Shown here piece by piece: positions 20,322 to 26,824 of a stretch of 39,893 nt of DNA (position 1 is its first letter; each line of letters opens with the position of its first letter). Location: IMG/VR virus record IMGVR_UViG_3300048591_000753, positions 1 to 39,893 of that record; one strand, 5' to 3'. The stretch comes from a virus. Below the pieces are notes generated by a model. The model was not told the DNA's origin. It saw only the letters and a program-made list of their open reading frames with translations, and did no database searches. Made by a program: the position numbers and the translations under genes.

Positions 20322-20602
20322 TCGCATGGCTTGCGGCTTGCCTAACTTATTGTTTCACCTATGCCATCATGCCGGGGGAGGCGTTCGCTTTTTGGGGCCG
20401 CGTCGTTAGGCGTGCCGCCGAACGCGGGGGCTGGCGGATGCACCTTGTCAAGCCGTTGGGCGGATGCGATTTTTGCACGGCTTTCTGGGTCGGTTGCGGT
20501 TGCGCCGTTGCCGCCGGGCTTGACTGGTGGTGCGTGCCGTTAACAGGTGCCGCGTCCGCCGTCGCCGTTGTCAAGGTTAACGAGTGGCTCAGTTCGATAT
20601 GA
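20273..20602 (+). CDS. Small membrane protein with GCDFCTAFW motif
   Basis: A 109-residue integral membrane protein. Residues 12-33 form a first hydrophobic helix, and residues 65-85 carry PLGGCDFCTAFWVGCGCAV, the cysteine-centred helix known from DUF1360-like small membrane proteins (C..C..FW). A third hydrophobic segment follows (LTGAASAVAVV). The ATG at 20273 was chosen because the hydrophobic start begins there and an earlier start would lie in a basic linker of the gene at 20169, which it overlaps by 49 bases. Such proteins are common beside phage lysis genes and may modulate the holin, though no mechanism is established. A terminator follows. Confidence 0.7.
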   Translation: MQNVWSKIADPAAACLIAWLAACLTYCFTYAIMPGEAFAFWGRVVRRAAERGGWRMHLVKPLGGCDFCTAFWVGCGCAVAAGLDWWCVPLTGAASAVAVVKVNEWLSSI

Positions 20603-20629
20603 ATCGTTTTCTTGTTGTTTTTCATGTGT

Positions 20630-20659
20630 AAAAATCCGGCGTTTGTCGGATTTTTTTTG
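20630..20659 (+). terminator. Terminator of the structural/lysis operon
   Basis: AAAAATCCG (20630-20638) pairs perfectly with CGGATTTTT (20647-20655), loop GCGTTTGT, in an extended T run. With a 9-bp stem of this A-rich kind it could work from both sides. The -7 box of the next gene begins at 20660, right behind the T run. Confidence 0.85.
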
Positions 20660-20667
20660 TACGTTTG
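20660..20667 (+). promoter_or_regulatory. -7 box for leaderless regulator mRNA
   Basis: TACGTTTG (20660-20667) matches TAnnTTTG exactly. The ATG follows after 5 bases (CGGGC). A clear -33 TTG at 20 bases is lacking; the nearest, TTG at 20643-20645 inside the terminator loop, gives only 14 bases, so the promoter may be weak or factor-dependent. Confidence 0.55.
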
Positions 20668-20672
20668 CGGGC

Positions 20673-21113
20673 ATGACCAGACTCGAAATTTTAGCAATGT
20701 GGAAAGCCGCCGCACAAGCGGACGGCCTGACTGTGGAAGACGTCCACACGCATTCACAGATGCCGCTAGACCGCCTCCGCAGGGCGTGGGACGGCTCCAT
20801 TGAAGACGGCTCGCATGGAGCCACCACGGGATACATAGTGCAACTGTTTCGCGCCATCGGGCGAACGGCGACGTTTGCCGTTGCAGGCATGGAAGACGTG
20901 ACCCCTCACATAGCGGGGCCGTGCGGGCGGTTGGCAGAAGCCATATATAAGGAGCGAACCAAGAGACACTGGGGGCAAGTGGACGTATCGGCAGCGGCGG
21001 GCGTGTCGAGGGTGTCCGTCCACAACGTGGAGAGGGGCCGAACCATCGCATGGTCTACGATTGAGCGGGTGTGTGAGGCGTTGGGGCTGGAACCCGTGTG
21101 CGTCGTGGAATAG
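20673..21113 (+). CDS. Two-domain HTH transcription regulator
   Basis: A 146-residue protein. The N-terminal half (MTRLEILAMWKAAAQADGLTVEDVHTHSQMPLDRLRRAW) looks like a degenerate helix-turn-helix. The C-terminal half (AIYKERTKRHWGQVDVSAAAGVSRVSVHNVERGRTIAW) is a recognisable Cro/C1-type HTH with the usual Q/A/AGVS-x-S-V-x-x-x-E-x-G pattern. Pairing two HTH units suits binding of a dyad operator. It is coded alone between a terminator and promoter P3 and starts leaderless, so it may control P3 and the three similar cassettes P1, P2 and P4. It has no peptidase or dimerisation domain of the classical lysogeny repressors. The regulatory target is inferred. Confidence 0.75.
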   Translation: MTRLEILAMWKAAAQADGLTVEDVHTHSQMPLDRLRRAWDGSIEDGSHGATTGYIVQLFRAIGRTATFAVAGMEDVTPHIAGPCGRLAEAIYKERTKRHWGQVDVSAAAGVSRVSVHNVERGRTIAWSTIERVCEALGLEPVCVVE

Positions 21114-21116
21114 GGG

Positions 21117-21182
21117 TATTCCCCTGTTTTCGGAAATAATTTTACAAACGCTTGACACGGATTGATTAGCCCCCTACCTTTG
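21117..21182 (+). promoter_or_regulatory. Promoter-operator cassette P3 (early operon)
   Basis: A dyad TATTCC...GGAAATA (21117-21138), AAACGCTTGACAC with TTG at 21152-21154, 20-base spacer and TACCTTTG (21175-21182). The following TCCCATTCACTAACGC is identical to the P2 leader. It begins immediately after the stop codon of the HTH gene and drives 21208-30007. Confidence 0.88.
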
Positions 21183-21207
21183 TCCCATTCACTAACGCCA
21201 CCCGCTC

Positions 21208-21864
21208 ATGCGCCCCGCTCTCCTCCACCCCTCAATCTACCCCGAAACGCTGCTGGCCCAAATGGCTAGCTGCTTGTTGGAAGACTCGCTGTTTTTCACC
21301 TATGTCTGCCAGAAAGGGTACCCGTTTTCCACCCCGTCCGGCACAGTTTGCATCAGTACGTGCGACACGCCCGGCCATTGCATCGAATGGCAGCCGGGCC
21401 GGGGGTGGGAACTGGAGGTCATTCGCACTTGCACCGTGCAAGGCGCAACCGCAACGGTTGCCATCCCCGTCCCGTTCGGGGAAACAATCCACGCCGCCCG
21501 GCACCTTTGGGATGCCTTGCGAGATACGGTCATGGAAGCCGTTCGCGGTCAATGGGAGGACGTTGCAGACCGTCCCCGCGCCGATAAATGGCAGATTCAG
21601 GACATCGCTTTGGAGCGGTTCCCCGTTGCCTTAACGGGGTTCCGCGTCGAACGCAGGCCGGACAACGAGGCGGTGACGTTCTCTTTTCTGGACAAGGCCG
21701 GCGATGTGTACGCCGTGTCCGATCTCGCCATGTCCGCCTCTGTGGACAGGCTGATTGAATGTCTGGAGGGCGAACGTTACGAGGCCGAACGCGCCGCCTC
21801 TTTCGACCTGCAAAAGGAAGACTTGGAACATCGCACGCCCGTCGCTTTCGGCGGGACGCTTTAG
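21208..21864 (+). CDS. First protein of the early operon, unknown function
   Basis: A 218-residue acidic protein beginning MRPALLHPSIYPETLLAQMASC. Parts look like a mixed alpha/beta fold (VCISTCDTPGHCIEWQPGRGWELEVIRT; DNEAVTFSFLDKAGDVYAVSDLAM), but I do not recognise the family. The ATG follows the P3 -7 box by 25 bases. Its stop codon TAG supplies the first base of the first hammerhead ribozyme, so cleavage would leave this mRNA ending in a stable hairpin 22 bases after the stop. As an immediate early product it may act in host takeover or control of the operon. Confidence 0.75.
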   Translation: MRPALLHPSIYPETLLAQMASCLLEDSLFFTYVCQKGYPFSTPSGTVCISTCDTPGHCIEWQPGRGWELEVIRTCTVQGATATVAIPVPFGETIHAARHLWDALRDTVMEAVRGQWEDVADRPRADKWQIQDIALERFPVALTGFRVERRPDNEAVTFSFLDKAGDVYAVSDLAMSASVDRLIECLEGERYEAERAASFDLQKEDLEHRTPVAFGGTL

Positions 21865-21923
21865 CCGAAACGGGGGAAACCCCGTCCACCGGACATAACC
21901 CCCCGGTGCCGATGAGGCAGGTT
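21864..21923 (+). ncRNA. Hammerhead ribozyme, type II, copy 1
   Basis: The strand reads GCC-GAAA, stem III ACGGGG/CCCCGU with a GAAA tetraloop (21870-21885), cleavage base C17 at 21886, stem I CACCGG/CCGGUG (21887-21892 with 21903-21908), core CCGAUGA (21909-21915) and GGC (21916-21918), which closes a 3-bp stem II with GCC (21864-21866). Loop I AACC (21897-21900) can pair with GGUU (21920-21923) as a pseudoknot. All core positions match the hammerhead consensus except C for U at position 4 of CUGAUGA, which should lower activity. Predicted cut is after 21886, between the gene at 21208 and that at 21937. Confidence 0.87.
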
Positions 21924-21936
21924 CGCCGATTGTTTT

Positions 21937-22464
21937 ATGGAGACACCACTACCAACAATGCAAGATATTTTCAAGCTGTGGGACTTGAGAATTTGGGCAC
22001 CTTTCATCATATCGCAGATCGAAAAAAGGGACAACACCAAAAAACATATGCACGGTTTCCGTGAAGGATACCGTGCTTGCCTTGTGAAAGTGCAAGAGGT
22101 TTTGATTACCGCATCCTTTGGATACGAGAACGCTATCCAGACACTCATGGAAAGCGACGAGAACTATATGGACTTTGATGACTATGCCTCCACTTATGAC
22201 GTTGAACAATCCGATGACATGGAAGAAAATGACTTCGCTATTTTCCCCCCTATTTGGTACACTTCTGCGAATGGGATACACATCATGGAAGATAACGGGG
22301 ACGTTGCCGTTCTTGTCTATTGCATTGATGGCATGATATTCAGGATATGGGCGGTTAACCAATTGTTTAACGACATTCATGACAAATGCTTCCTCACTCT
22401 ATCCGATGCTATGGGATGTGCAAACGGTCATCCTAATCTCTTGCAATGGAGAGATGACGCATAA
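21937..22464 (+). CDS. Unknown gene flanked by two hammerhead ribozymes
   Basis: A 175-residue acidic protein (METPLPTMQDIFKLWDLRIWAP...). Its middle is very acidic (ESDENYMDFDDYASTYDVEQ then SDDMEENDFAIF), followed by a beta-like segment with NGIHIMEDNGDVAVLVYCI. I recognise no family. Its codons are visibly more AT-rich than those of the genes around it, which suggests separate arrival. It lies exactly between two ribozymes that would cut it out of the operon mRNA as a 606-base RNA (21887-22492). An alternative start is the ATG seven codons downstream. Charge resembles DNA-mimic or anti-defence proteins, but that is speculation. Confidence 0.75.
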   Translation: METPLPTMQDIFKLWDLRIWAPFIISQIEKRDNTKKHMHGFREGYRACLVKVQEVLITASFGYENAIQTLMESDENYMDFDDYASTYDVEQSDDMEENDFAIFPPIWYTSANGIHIMEDNGDVAVLVYCIDGMIFRIWAVNQLFNDIHDKCFLTLSDAMGCANGHPNLLQWRDDA

Positions 22465-22468
22465 CTAA

Positions 22469-22530
22469 GCCGAAACGGGGGGGAACCCCGTCGGTTGGGA
22501 GCGACCGCCCCAGCCCTGATGAGGCAGGTC
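22469..22530 (+). ncRNA. Hammerhead ribozyme, type II, copy 2
   Basis: GCC (22469-22471) and GAAA are followed by stem III ACGGGG/CCCCGU (22475-22480 with 22486-22491), C17 at 22492, stem I GGUUGGG/CCCAGCC (22493-22499 with 22509-22515), the exact core CUGAUGA (22516-22522) and GGC closing stem II. Loop I GACC (22503-22506) pairs with GGUC (22527-22530). Every conserved core base of the hammerhead is present. Stem I and the pseudoknot differ in sequence from copy 1 but keep pairing. Predicted cut after 22492 would leave the recT mRNA with a 5'-OH and a hairpin 43 bases before its ATG. Confidence 0.93.
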
Positions 22531-22535
22531 ACAAA

Positions 22536-23351
22536 ATGGAAATTGAGGAACTGTTAAAACTTACCGCCGAACGCTGCCAGACGGCGGACGGTGCGTTACC
22601 GCCGCCTTATTTGGTGCGGCAAGTTGTCGAGATGTGCGAACGCGCAGGCGTTAGCCCTCTCGAAAAATGGATTTACCTAATCTTGCGAGGCGGTAAATGG
22701 TCGGTCGAACCGTCCATCAATTGGGTTCGCTTGGTTGCCGAAAGAACAGGCCGATATATGGGGGTCACAGAGACGCTCTGGCTCGACGAAAACGGCAACT
22801 GGCTAGACTATTGGATCGCGAATTACCCCCCGCTAGCGGCAAAGAAAGGGGTCTATATCGCAGGCAACGCCAAGCCTAGCTACGGCACCGCAAACAAAGA
22901 AATGGCAGGGTCGGGGCCGATGTGGAAGAAGTACTCGGCCCATATGCTGGCCAAAGTTGCCGAACGCATCGCGCTGCAAACCGCGTTCCCCGCCGAAGTT
23001 GGGGCGGACGTTTCGGAGATCGAAATGGACGCGGCGCATGAAAGCAAGCCCGAAGTGCAAGCCCCCCCGAAAAAGGAAATCGTCCTGCCAACGGCGGCAC
23101 AGTGGGACGAACTGAGAAATATCCTTGCCCATCCGTGCATATCGGACGCGGCACGGGAACAGGCACTGCAAGTTGCGGGCAAGGCTATGTCCAAATCCGA
23201 AATGCAAAAGGTCGTCAAACAGACCGAGCTTTGGGCCGCTGACAAGGTGGCCAAATACGAAGCCGCCCAACAGGCACCGCCCGCTCCCGAAGTTCAACAA
23301 CCCGAAACCGACGACGACGAAGTCGTGATGCACCATGAAGTGCCCCGCTGA
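22536..23351 (+). CDS. recT: RecT/Bet-type single-strand annealing protein
   Basis: A 271-residue recombinase. SVEPSINWVRLVAERTGRYMG and SYGTANKEMAGSGPMWKKYSAHMLAKVAERIALQTAFP are the conserved core of phage RecT/Bet annealases, which pair homologous single strands produced by the partner exonuclease. A linker follows about residue 165, then a helical C-terminal part rich in alanine and glutamine. The last 13 residues, DDDEVVMHHEVPR, recur almost exactly at the end of the unrelated protein at 31282. The ATG lies 5 bases after the ribozyme pseudoknot strand, and the end overlaps the exonuclease gene by 17 bases. Confidence 0.88.
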   Translation: MEIEELLKLTAERCQTADGALPPPYLVRQVVEMCERAGVSPLEKWIYLILRGGKWSVEPSINWVRLVAERTGRYMGVTETLWLDENGNWLDYWIANYPPLAAKKGVYIAGNAKPSYGTANKEMAGSGPMWKKYSAHMLAKVAERIALQTAFPAEVGADVSEIEMDAAHESKPEVQAPPKKEIVLPTAAQWDELRNILAHPCISDAAREQALQVAGKAMSKSEMQKVVKQTELWAADKVAKYEAAQQAPPAPEVQQPETDDDEVVMHHEVPR

Positions 23352-24087
23352 AGTTTGGGCTGCCGTCGAATCATGGTCGCCCGAAATTACCTACACTCCC
23401 GACCCGCACGGCGCAACCGATGCACAGGGCCGTCCCTTTATGGGGGTCAATCGAATGATCAAAGCCTATACGGAACCGTTTGACCCGGTGCGTATCAGCA
23501 ACATGATTGTCAAGCGGCACTTCTCTTATCTTTCGGAGCAGGAGCAAGAGGCAAAGGCCGCCGGATACCGAGCCGATTGGGACAACAGGCGGCAACGCGG
23601 TATCGACTTCTCGAATGCGATGGAAGCCGCTTGGAAGGGGCAACCTTTCGATCCACAGTGGCAAGCCCACGTCGAAGACTCCCTTTCGTGGATTCAGGAT
23701 CGGTACCCGATGGACAAGGTGCGGCCCGAACTCATGTTATGGCATACCGCCGCCCGTATTTGGGGGTTCGCCGATGTGGTTGTTTTCGATGGGGCGAAAG
23801 TCCACGTATACGATTACAAGCTAGTCAAAGAGATACGGTCGAAGGGGATGTTCGGGCTTATGATGGCCCCGCCTTTCGAGCGGTTCCCCGATGCCAACGG
23901 TTCCCATTACGCCCTGCAAATTTCGGCCTATGCCTACTTTCTCGAATTGCAGGGGTACGAAATCGGCACGCTCGCTATCTTGCACGTCAACGAACTGGGG
24001 CAAGCGAAGGAAATCCCCGTGCCATACGAGCGGGAAGCCGTGGAACAAATGTTATATATGCGAATCGTAAGCCTCGAAAACGAATGA
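23335..24087 (+). CDS. PD-(D/E)XK exonuclease, partner of the annealase
   Basis: A 250-residue nuclease of the Cas4/RecB/lambda-Exo type. The catalytic run is visible as ELMLWHTAARIWGFADVVVF (Glu and Asp) followed by VHVYDYKLVK (the DxK pair), and LQISAYAYFLEL is the family's QxxxY helix. It should chew one strand of double-stranded ends to feed RecT. The start ATG lies inside the end of recT, in a different frame, an arrangement that couples their translation. The N-terminus (MKCPAEVWAAVESWSPEITYTPDPHG) resembles the small lead-in seen in Bacteroidota phage exonucleases. Its stop overlaps the next ATG. Confidence 0.85.
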   Translation: MKCPAEVWAAVESWSPEITYTPDPHGATDAQGRPFMGVNRMIKAYTEPFDPVRISNMIVKRHFSYLSEQEQEAKAAGYRADWDNRRQRGIDFSNAMEAAWKGQPFDPQWQAHVEDSLSWIQDRYPMDKVRPELMLWHTAARIWGFADVVVFDGAKVHVYDYKLVKEIRSKGMFGLMMAPPFERFPDANGSHYALQISAYAYFLELQGYEIGTLAILHVNELGQAKEIPVPYEREAVEQMLYMRIVSLENE

Positions 24088-24413
24088 GAACGCTTGCTTT
24101 GCATAAGCCCGGCGATAGGGTTATCGAACTGTCTACCGGGTACAGAGGTATAGTCGAATATAATGCAGAGACAGGCCCAACCGATGCCGTGTTTGTTCGT
24201 TGGCAGTATGGAAATGCGTGCTGGTTTCCATGTTCTCGCATGAGATTTGAAGACCCCGCCGTTCATTCCATGAGGGCATGGGAATTGTTTGTCGATACGC
24301 TACCGACAACAGATCAGAAGGTCGGATTTATATACGACGGATGGCCGTGGTATGAAGCGTTGGACGCGCTGACACTTATTCATTCGATCCCAAAGCCCAC
24401 CCCCTGCGAATGA
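24084..24413 (+). CDS. Small protein between exonuclease and primase
   Basis: A 109-residue protein starting in an ATGA overlap with the exonuclease. The opening MRTLALHKPGDRVIELSTGYRGIVEYNAETGPTDAVFVRW has the pattern of a small SH3-like or KOW-like barrel (GDRV...G.V....A.VRW), and the rest is helical (YEALDALTLIHSI). Proteins with this barrel occur several times in this genome. No family is recognised. It is in the replication/recombination block, so a role as a DNA-binding accessory is possible, but not shown. An ATGA overlap leads into the primase. Confidence 0.65.
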   Translation: MRTLALHKPGDRVIELSTGYRGIVEYNAETGPTDAVFVRWQYGNACWFPCSRMRFEDPAVHSMRAWELFVDTLPTTDQKVGFIYDGWPWYEALDALTLIHSIPKPTPCE

Positions 24414-26824
24414 AAGACTTGCTCATTAGCTTCTATGTAAACGTCCTTGACTCCGATAGTCAACGGACGTTTACATTGAAGTCTATCCTTGACAATATCA
24501 AAGCCTGTTACTGGGGCGAACGGGTAGACGCGCTGCGGGCCGAACCGGACAAGGCCAAACAAGACGCGCTTAAAAAACAGATGCCCGGCGTGACGTTCGC
24601 GGGCGTGTTCGCCCGCCGCAACAAGATCGCTTGCACCGCGTTCACTGGACTGGTGACGCTTGACTTCGATAGTATATCCAACCCCGCACAGATAGTCCGA
24701 GCGGCGCGTGCCCATACGTCTACGGTTGCCGCTTTCATATCCCCTCGTGGTGAGGGAGCAAAGATAATAGTCCTAACGGATGCGACTATTGACACGTACC
24801 CGGCGGCTTATCAATATGTGAAGGCTGAATATGAAAGACATACGGGTTGCATAGCCGACAAAAGCGGTGCGGATATTAGCCGTCTGTGCTTCGTATCGGC
24901 GGACGCTAACGCATATATCAATTACAATGCAACGGCCTTGCACATCCCCCCGGCGGAATCGGCCCCGGCGTTGCCCGTCCGACAGTCAACCGCACCCGTT
25001 GCCGCCGCCAAATTGCCGGGGGACGCACGCCCTACAGAGGACGCGCCCGTCGCGGAACGCCTCGCATGGGCGGAACGGTGCGCCAACAAAGACTATCGTT
25101 TCGTAGCCGGGCAGAGAAACAATTTCGTCAACCAACTGGCCTTCTATGCCCATCGGTTGGGGTGCGATTATAGCGACATCATGTCATATATTGACTCCAA
25201 TCATTTCGTTTCCGACGATTTCCCACGTGTCGAAATTGAGCGAACCGTTTATTCAGCTACCGAAAACCTAGCGGCTAAGGGCGAATTTTACAAGGCAGAC
25301 CGCCCCGCCGTGGCACGCGCCCGCAACCGAGAGACTAAGCAGGCCGCCGCCCCGTCTGGTGGTGGTGACACAGACGCCCCCGCCGATGGTTCGTTCCGCT
25401 TTTGGGACGTTAACCAAAATGGTGTTATTAGATTTGACCATATGAAGGTCATCGAATGGCTGGAAAACGAGGGCTTTTGCAGATACCAATATGCGAACAA
25501 GGCGTTTGATTTTATACGTGTCCAAAGAAACGTTGTCCATGTGGTGACTGTGGCAGAGATCAAACAACACTGCCGGGAAGCACTTGAATCTATGGCCGAA
25601 ACGAACGTACTTTCCAAGCTAATTAAAGAGGAAGACAAACATCTAAGCAAATCCAAGCTCGAATGGCTCCCTATTTTGGACGACATATTTGTACGTGACA
25701 CGTCCGAGTATGTGCATATCTTCTATGCCGATGCGTGCATTCGCATAGATATGTTCTCATGCGCAACCGTCTCATACGACCGGGTTGGTGGGTACGTTTG
25801 GCGCGACTGGATTCTCAATCGGCCCGCGCCGATCTACAAACCGGGGTACGTGGATGGGGACTTTTGGGACTTCCTTACCTGCGTATCTGGAGAGAAAGCC
25901 ACGTCCTTTCGCCCTCGTAAGGAGGCGTTGGCTGCCCTCTTTGGCTACCTTGTGAGCCGTCACAAAGACGCGGCGAACGCTAAGGCCGTTGTCTTGTGTG
26001 ACTCTGCGATGCCCGAAATGAAAGGGGAGGCAAACGGCGGTACGGGCAAGTCCCTGTTTGGCGTGGCCGTTTCCCACATCCGACCCGTCATTAGGTTGGG
26101 GGGCCACGAACTGCAAAAGTATGTCAAGGGCGACACTCAGTTCGCCTTGCAAAGGGTGACGACTTCAACGTGCGTGCTGGACTTCAACGACCTGCCTCCA
26201 AAGTTCCCGTTTCAGGCTCTCTTTAACGCAATTACGGACGACCTAATTGTTGAACGGAAACAGCAGTCTGCGGTCATGATTCCGTTTGAAACGTCCCCGA
26301 AAATCCTGATCGCCACGAACGAAACGGTGCCGGACAAAGGGAACAGCTACGAACGCCGGAAGGTAGAGTTTGAATTTTCGCCGTACTTCAATCGGTCGCA
26401 CGTACCTAAGGACGAGTTCAAACGGCTGTTTTTCAGCGAGTGGGATACGCCGGAATGGGGACGGTTCGACTGTGCGGTCATCGCTTGCGTTCAAACGTTC
26501 CTAAGGGAAGGTTTGGCCCCGCCGAAACCAGTCAACCTGCAACGCCGCAAACTCATGGACGCGACCTGTTTGGAGTTTAGCGAGTTCGCCTATGGGATTT
26601 ACGACAACGAAAACGGGAACGAGAAGATACTCCGTTGCGATGTTCGGTACAACGTCGCCGATCTTTTGGCCACGTTTAATCAGTACTTTGAATTGAAGGA
26701 AACGCCGGACGTTCAAACCTTTGGCAAGTGGCTGGCCATCCTGGCGCAGGTCAAAAGGTGGAACATGAAACGCGAACGCGCCGGAAAGAACAAACCGTCT
26801 TACGTGCTGTTTGAATCGAAATGA
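24410..26824 (+). CDS. Primase-helicase replication protein
   Basis: An 804-residue replication protein. Residues about 30-180 (RVDALRAEPDKAKQDALKKQMPGVTFAG ... TGLVTLDFDSI ... ISPRGEGAKIIV) match the BT4734/VirE-type N-terminal domain, a primase-related module common in Bacteroidota. A winged linker follows. Around residue 540 a Walker A GEANGGTGKSLFG and further downstream VLDFNDLPPKF (Walker B-like) and LIATNETVPDKGNSYERRKVEFEF (sensor and arginine finger) show a superfamily 3-like helicase of the DUF5906 type. It probably opens the origin, unwinds and primes. No DNA polymerase gene is visible, so the phage would use the host polymerase. ATGA overlaps join it on both sides. Confidence 0.85.
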   Translation: MKDLLISFYVNVLDSDSQRTFTLKSILDNIKACYWGERVDALRAEPDKAKQDALKKQMPGVTFAGVFARRNKIACTAFTGLVTLDFDSISNPAQIVRAARAHTSTVAAFISPRGEGAKIIVLTDATIDTYPAAYQYVKAEYERHTGCIADKSGADISRLCFVSADANAYINYNATALHIPPAESAPALPVRQSTAPVAAAKLPGDARPTEDAPVAERLAWAERCANKDYRFVAGQRNNFVNQLAFYAHRLGCDYSDIMSYIDSNHFVSDDFPRVEIERTVYSATENLAAKGEFYKADRPAVARARNRETKQAAAPSGGGDTDAPADGSFRFWDVNQNGVIRFDHMKVIEWLENEGFCRYQYANKAFDFIRVQRNVVHVVTVAEIKQHCREALESMAETNVLSKLIKEEDKHLSKSKLEWLPILDDIFVRDTSEYVHIFYADACIRIDMFSCATVSYDRVGGYVWRDWILNRPAPIYKPGYVDGDFWDFLTCVSGEKATSFRPRKEALAALFGYLVSRHKDAANAKAVVLCDSAMPEMKGEANGGTGKSLFGVAVSHIRPVIRLGGHELQKYVKGDTQFALQRVTTSTCVLDFNDLPPKFPFQALFNAITDDLIVERKQQSAVMIPFETSPKILIATNETVPDKGNSYERRKVEFEFSPYFNRSHVPKDEFKRLFFSEWDTPEWGRFDCAVIACVQTFLREGLAPPKPVNLQRRKLMDATCLEFSEFAYGIYDNENGNEKILRCDVRYNVADLLATFNQYFELKETPDVQTFGKWLAILAQVKRWNMKRERAGKNKPSYVLFESK

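Follow-up and report, generated by a model that had tools for sequence, protein, structure and literature searches.

Clusters of hammerhead ribozymes around small genes have been known in phages since 2011, when Perreault et al. described prophage clusters in Clostridium scindens, Azorhizobium caulinodans and Agrobacterium tumefaciens (the last with ardA) and inferred transcript processing for these multiple gene-flanking elements (PMC3088659). Three tandem arrays cleave in vitro, that of A. tumefaciens also in E. coli, and mutants of the pseudoknot are inactive until compensation restores activity (PMC3088659). A 2017 review reports the same placement around "small and non-conserved" ORFs and still calls the function of phage hammerheads an open question (PMC6155905). 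The hammerhead-like HHphage ribozyme of haloviruses HF1 and HF2, a single-copy element of an archaeal virus, has a transcript end mapped at its cut and carries an altered core of its own, thought to suit high salt (PMC3088659). Finally, a viroid hammerhead with U4C is reported to cleave considerably more slowly in vitro and yet to suffice in vivo (ref. 30, cited in PMC3088659).

Here we describe a clean pair of hammerheads in a predicted Bacteroidota phage. The window, that is, the whole stretch of DNA analysed, is a 39,893-base IMG/VR virus record with tape measure, endolysin, portal and terminase genes. Family profile searches showed that it also encodes DNA methyltransferases and a RecT-exonuclease-primase block.

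Two type II hammerheads in consecutive intergenic gaps

A cmscan search of the whole record with all Rfam families (E up to 5) matched RF02276 (Hammerhead_II) exactly twice and no other credible family (Table 1). The two matches occupy consecutive intergenic gaps (21865-21936 and 22465-22535) on the same sense strand, where a sequence-only reading had placed two type II hammerheads around the gene at 21937. When RF02276 alone was searched over the 39.9-kb record, the E-values were 1.8e-9 for copy 2 and 1.3e-6 for copy 1. The gathering score of the family is 37 bits; copy 2 lies above it, and copy 1 falls short by 4 bits, yet matches the full length of the model. By score, copy 1 can be filed only as a core variant beside a full member. 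Weak RF02276 matches (E up to 1) were found in five of 14 control genomes, none of them above the cut-off.

Table 1. Positions of the genes, ribozymes and ribozyme parts in the window.
Feature	Position	Strand	Evidence or sequence
Predicted Bacteroidota-type promoter, heads the transcript	21152..21182	+	TTGACACGGATTGATTAGCCCCCTACCTTTG; scan for TTG-N18-23-TAnnTTTG
ORF, 218 aa, 5' of copy 1	21208..21864	+	ORF list; no family match
Type II hammerhead, copy 1	21863..21926	+	RF02276, 32.8 bits; E 0.0053, all Rfam
Copy 1, stem II	21864-66 / 21916-18	+	GCC / GGC, 3 bp
Copy 1, stem III	21870-75 / 21880-85	+	
Copy 1, predicted cut	after 21886	+	script-derived helices
Copy 1, stem I	21887-92 / 21903-08	+	CACCGG / CCGGTG
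Copy 1, pseudoknot	21897-900 (loop I) / 21920-23	+	AACC / GGTT
Copy 1, core	21909-15	+	CCGAUGA
Orphan ORF, 175 aa, between the ribozymes	21937..22464	+	ORF list; no family match
Type II hammerhead, copy 2	22468..22533	+	RF02276, 43.7 bits; E 7.8e-6, all Rfam
Copy 2, stem II	22469-71 / 22523-25	+	GCC / GGC, 3 bp
Copy 2, predicted cut	after 22492	+	script-derived helices
Copy 2, stem I	22493-99 / 22509-15	+	GGTTGGG / CCCAGCC
Copy 2, pseudoknot	22503-06 (loop I) / 22527-30	+	GACC / GGTC
Copy 2, core	22516-22	+	CUGAUGA
RecT/Bet-like single-strand annealing protein	22536..23351	+	PF03837, 2.9e-8; phrog_2780, 4e-25; TIGR01913, 5.3e-9, below its cut-off
Exonuclease gene, overlaps recT end	23335..24087	+	phrog_298, 1.2e-8; weak Cas4-like match
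Primase-like protein, further downstream	24410..26824	+	PF08800 BT4734-like_N, 5.2e-22; phrog_28855, 2.8e-72

Helices re-derived by script have the type II layout in both copies, with loops closing stems I and III and an open-ended stem II, and they reproduce exactly the two cut sites read earlier from the letters. Stem I differs in sequence between the copies and is paired in both, as had been claimed. The pseudoknot pairings of loop I reported by the sequence-only reading also exist, except that their partner strand lies in the single-stranded 3' tail, past stem II and not within it, as in the published type II consensus (PMC3088659). Model score, covariation and pseudoknot together confirm both elements as real type II hammerheads.

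Folding energy alone would have let these hammerheads escape detection. Fold-energy z-scores are only -1.5 for copy 1 and -1.1 for copy 2, and, with the pseudoknot ignored, the isolated strands have minimum-energy folds about 1.4 and 0.2 kcal/mol lower, respectively, than the best folds that contain the hammerhead helices. Such unexceptional values would suit GC-rich intergenic hairpins that resemble hammerheads by chance. We give this explanation a very small likelihood, as the sequence-only reading did, since two Rfam matches with the above E-values fall within 40 kb, both on the sense strand and in consecutive gaps, with stems and pseudoknots that differ and yet pair. We rejected a terminator role for stem III, which is not followed by a T run; nor is either ribozyme among the terminator-like sites.

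Neither the 218-aa ORF nor the 175-aa orphan matched pfam, phrogs, padloc or ncbifam, and the orphan also had no match among phage records and viral contigs; its single-sequence AlphaFold model was uninformative (pLDDT 35). With a GC content of 43.6 percent, the orphan falls in the lowest 1 percent of the phage's 528-nt windows and is likely a recent acquisition. The TAG stop codon of the 218-aa ORF (21862-21864) shares A21863 and G21864 with copy 1, copy 2 begins three bases after a stop codon, and the recT start codon lies 5 nt past the pseudoknot strand of copy 2. Within the primase-like ORF, 20 nt from its start, is a 17-nt inverted repeat (24430-24481; 94 percent complementary; fold z -6.3) with a below-cut-off Rfam mir-30 match, which may be an operator, part of an origin or a translational hairpin.

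The promoter scan found seven sites in the record, all on the + strand, compared with 1.7 expected on both strands and a maximum of five in 50 resamplings. Four of these promoter-like sites, at 577, 6016, 21152 and 34799 on the + strand, are near-identical (TTGACACG...TACCTTTG), and each possibly heads a gene block. A hairpin, AAAAATCCGGCGTTTGTCGGATTTTTTTT, at 20630-20658, just 5' of an HTH regulator gene, is likely an intrinsic terminator (fold z -3.3). The ribozymes had been assigned to an early operon. This assignment is a reasonable inference from the promoter at 21152 and the downstream RecT, exonuclease and primase-like genes, but early timing is unsupported, as the near-identical promoters at 577, 6016 and 34799 lie in other parts of the genome, the structural region included. 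Because of the promoter-like sites and the BT4734-like primase, the sequence points to Bacteroidota as the probable host. Region 20500-24500 had no blastn match in 50,697 phage records, and scans with the terminase and primase yielded no near relative of the phage.

Recurrence of C at core position 4

Both cores are as the sequence-only reading had described them: copy 2 has every base of CUGANGA ... GAAA and the U16.1-H17 cut site, and copy 1 has C in place of U at position 4, with all other core bases present. That reading had also named a covariance model score below threshold as grounds for refutation. Copy 2 scores above the threshold, while copy 1, taken alone, falls on the refuting side. 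Its core, however, differs only at U4, a change that recurs in natural type II hammerheads.

A canonical-core pattern scan of viral contigs returned 76 stretches, or 75 after removal of a false match (L017), and a second scan, which admitted A, C or G at position 4, returned eight. Position 4 is thus U in 75 stretches, C in eight and A or G in none. We discarded L017, and likewise the C4 matches in genome contigs that lacked structure, as chance resemblances. The equivalent scan of viral contigs with G5 changed returned no stretch, and that with A6 changed returned one, with weak stems. As a transition, U-to-C has a raised base rate, but the G5 and A6 scans covered transitions as well. Among structurally intact matches in genome contigs, five of 25 have C4, some of these being elements already counted among the viral stretches. 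When 11 C4 hammerheads including copy 1 were aligned, 98 percent of cells were paired, and both partners had changed in 11 of the 19 pairs, including two of the four in the pseudoknot. Covariation in this alignment was 0.525, versus 0.142 for shuffled and at most 0.119 for slid controls. These patterns are evidence that C4 forms are maintained by selection.

The C4 loci with intact stems and pseudoknot are L086, L087, L088, L089, L090, L091, L092, L093, L180, L181 and L191. C4 and U4 copies coexist in at least two records (L091/G073 and L092/G074).

Alternatively, the core of copy 1 may be broken and the element a relic in decay, leaving copy 2 as the only active ribozyme and a single cut ahead of recT. 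The C4 core and sub-cut-off score of copy 1 fit such decay, and U4C reportedly lowers cleavage considerably in vitro (PMC3088659). Against this, C4 accounts for eight of 83 viral stretches of the motif class, A4 and G4 for none; the C4 copies retain covarying stems and the pseudoknot; and a relic should carry other core damage, of which copy 1 has none. We therefore consider decay unlikely, though it keeps an appreciable share of our credence. Because C4 recurs with covarying stems and the pseudoknot kept, and because the U4C viroid hammerhead suffices in vivo, copy 1 is probably a slow ribozyme and not a dead one.

Hammerhead arrays in other viral records

We searched 75 other viral records whole with RF02276 (E 1e-4); these came from the canonical-core and position-4 scans and so had been chosen for a type II motif, and the counts thus describe usage in such phages, not prevalence. 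At least two hammerheads were present in 31 of the 75, the largest sets comprising ten (G074), nine (G043) and eight (G034, G053 and G060). Together with the clusters published in 2011 (PMC3088659) and reviewed in 2017 (PMC6155905), this count leaves unsupported the earlier view that paired intercistronic hammerheads acting as mRNA processors in an early phage operon are unusual. No record had hammerheads on both strands, among 174 hammerheads. Rows of eight to ten type II hammerheads on one strand (L164, G074:1500-14500; L152, G043:61500-69916; L155; L158; L148), often with one small gene per interval, exceed the three-ribozyme arrays of the PMC3088659 text.

In 148 of 164 parsed hammerheads, at least four bases of loop I pair with the 3' tail of the same motif; when tails were swapped among the 164 motifs, a mean of 65 and a maximum of 77 paired in 200 trials. 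As judged by this comparison, the loop I/3'-tail pseudoknot is real across the class.

In 60 of 92 intervals shorter than 1500 nt, one ORF (median 102 aa) fills at least 80 percent of the interval, and start codons lie a median of 15 nt past the motif. On the upstream side, 57 of 163 ORF ends are a TAG whose A and G open the motif, as in copy 1, and another 29 are a TAA or TGA finishing one base earlier. TAG makes up 76 of 163 stop codons beside a ribozyme, compared with 101 of the 556 other stop codons in these loci. As a control for the chance long frames that GC-rich DNA gives, we counted fused TAG codons in the 60 intervals filled to at least 80 percent by an ORF, and found them in 27. The fusion partly follows from compact genomes and from the AG that opens the consensus. 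The overlap suggests a tie between translation and self-cleavage. The ribozyme might be a translation-coupled switch in which termination at the upstream frame competes with cleavage: a terminating ribosome would mask the GAAA core and the 5' strand of stem II, and only incompletely translated messages would be cut; core variants such as C4 would then set the speed, and copy 1 would be a slow, ribosome-gated junction. We regard this switch as a speculative and rather improbable mechanism.

The 142 proteins encoded next to a ribozyme include eight Mu-type transposases and a few regulators; the majority belong to no named family, and the only RecT among them is that of the present record. The ribozymes thus lack a constant companion gene, a point also made by Perreault et al. 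(PMC3088659). No type II hammerhead could be detected in RecT relatives or in the nearest phage with the primase, and no relative of this phage with the same ribozyme pair was found. A blastn search with copy 2 gave a weak match to Streptomyces phages (best E 0.02).

Small, mostly unrelated genes beside the ribozymes would also be expected if the motifs were homologous linkers for swapping gene cassettes by recombination, with cleavage incidental and the orphan, far more AT-rich than the rest, swapped in; the 88 percent stem III identity between the two copies of this phage fits such use. However, copies within one genome diverge in stems and loops nearly as far as copies from different genomes: median identity within and between genomes is 0.69 and 0.61 for stem III and 0.62 and 0.59 for stem I. 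Such divergence ill suits homologous recombination, yet the pairing is maintained. Moreover, the GC content of flanked segments is close to that of their surroundings in 30 records (median difference -0.002), and we rejected the insulation of foreign cassettes as a general rule on the same measurement. A linker role is decidedly unlikely in our judgement.

Probable transcript processing and comparison with known systems

From the motifs, covariation, sense orientation and junction positions, which are established, we infer that the two hammerheads probably cut the polycistronic phage transcript in cis and co-transcriptionally into three messages. The first would carry the first gene and end at 21886; the second would be a 606-nt RNA (21887-22492) encoding the orphan, with the stem I hairpin at its 5' end and the stem III hairpin at its 3' end; and the third, starting at 22493, would carry the recT-exonuclease-replication genes. 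Upstream products would have the stem III hairpin and a 2',3'-cyclic phosphate at their 3' ends, and downstream products would open with a 5'-OH directly before the stem I hairpin. Such hairpin ends would be expected to shield the pieces from exonucleases and so permit independent decay and translation. Copy 2 would cut fast and copy 1, with C4, more slowly, so that part of the message would stay joined. Counting against cleavage, four of 18 consensus-conforming candidates were inactive in vitro (Perreault et al., PMC3088659).

Two same-orientation hammerheads that flank one segment could conceivably make circles or religated RNA of the flanked gene instead of simple linear messages. Hammerheads are able to ligate in principle. 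But the flanked segment holds an ordinary ORF, and spliced or circular products of clustered hammerheads were sought and none were found (Perreault et al., PMC3088659), and we consider such products highly improbable here.

Cleavage into linear messages is also the role proposed for the prophage clusters of 2011, in which, as here, at least two sense-strand hammerheads lie on either side of one small gene within a phage operon; the difference lies in the genes, here the orphan and then recT. The present pair is thus a new, well-formed example of a known arrangement. In the literature searched, we found no description of a frequent and seemingly tolerated C4 variant of type II hammerheads or of ribozymes starting in the upstream stop codon. 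The recurrence of C4 and the stop-codon fusion make the question of function more testable, and arrays of up to ten ribozymes per phage are good systems for direct tests of mRNA processing. At the level of the family, both copies share with Hammerhead_II (RF02276) the order of elements, all helices, the GUC triplet, the 3-bp stem II and the pseudoknot of loop I with the 3' tail. The core is complete in copy 2, whereas copy 1 differs by C4 and its sub-cut-off score. The C4 change is the same core substitution as in the U4C viroid hammerhead, which serves plant viroid replication and not mRNA processing. With HHphage of HF1 and HF2, the locus shares a hammerhead-like ribozyme a few nucleotides 5' of a replication gene, an early one in the haloviruses (PMC3088659).
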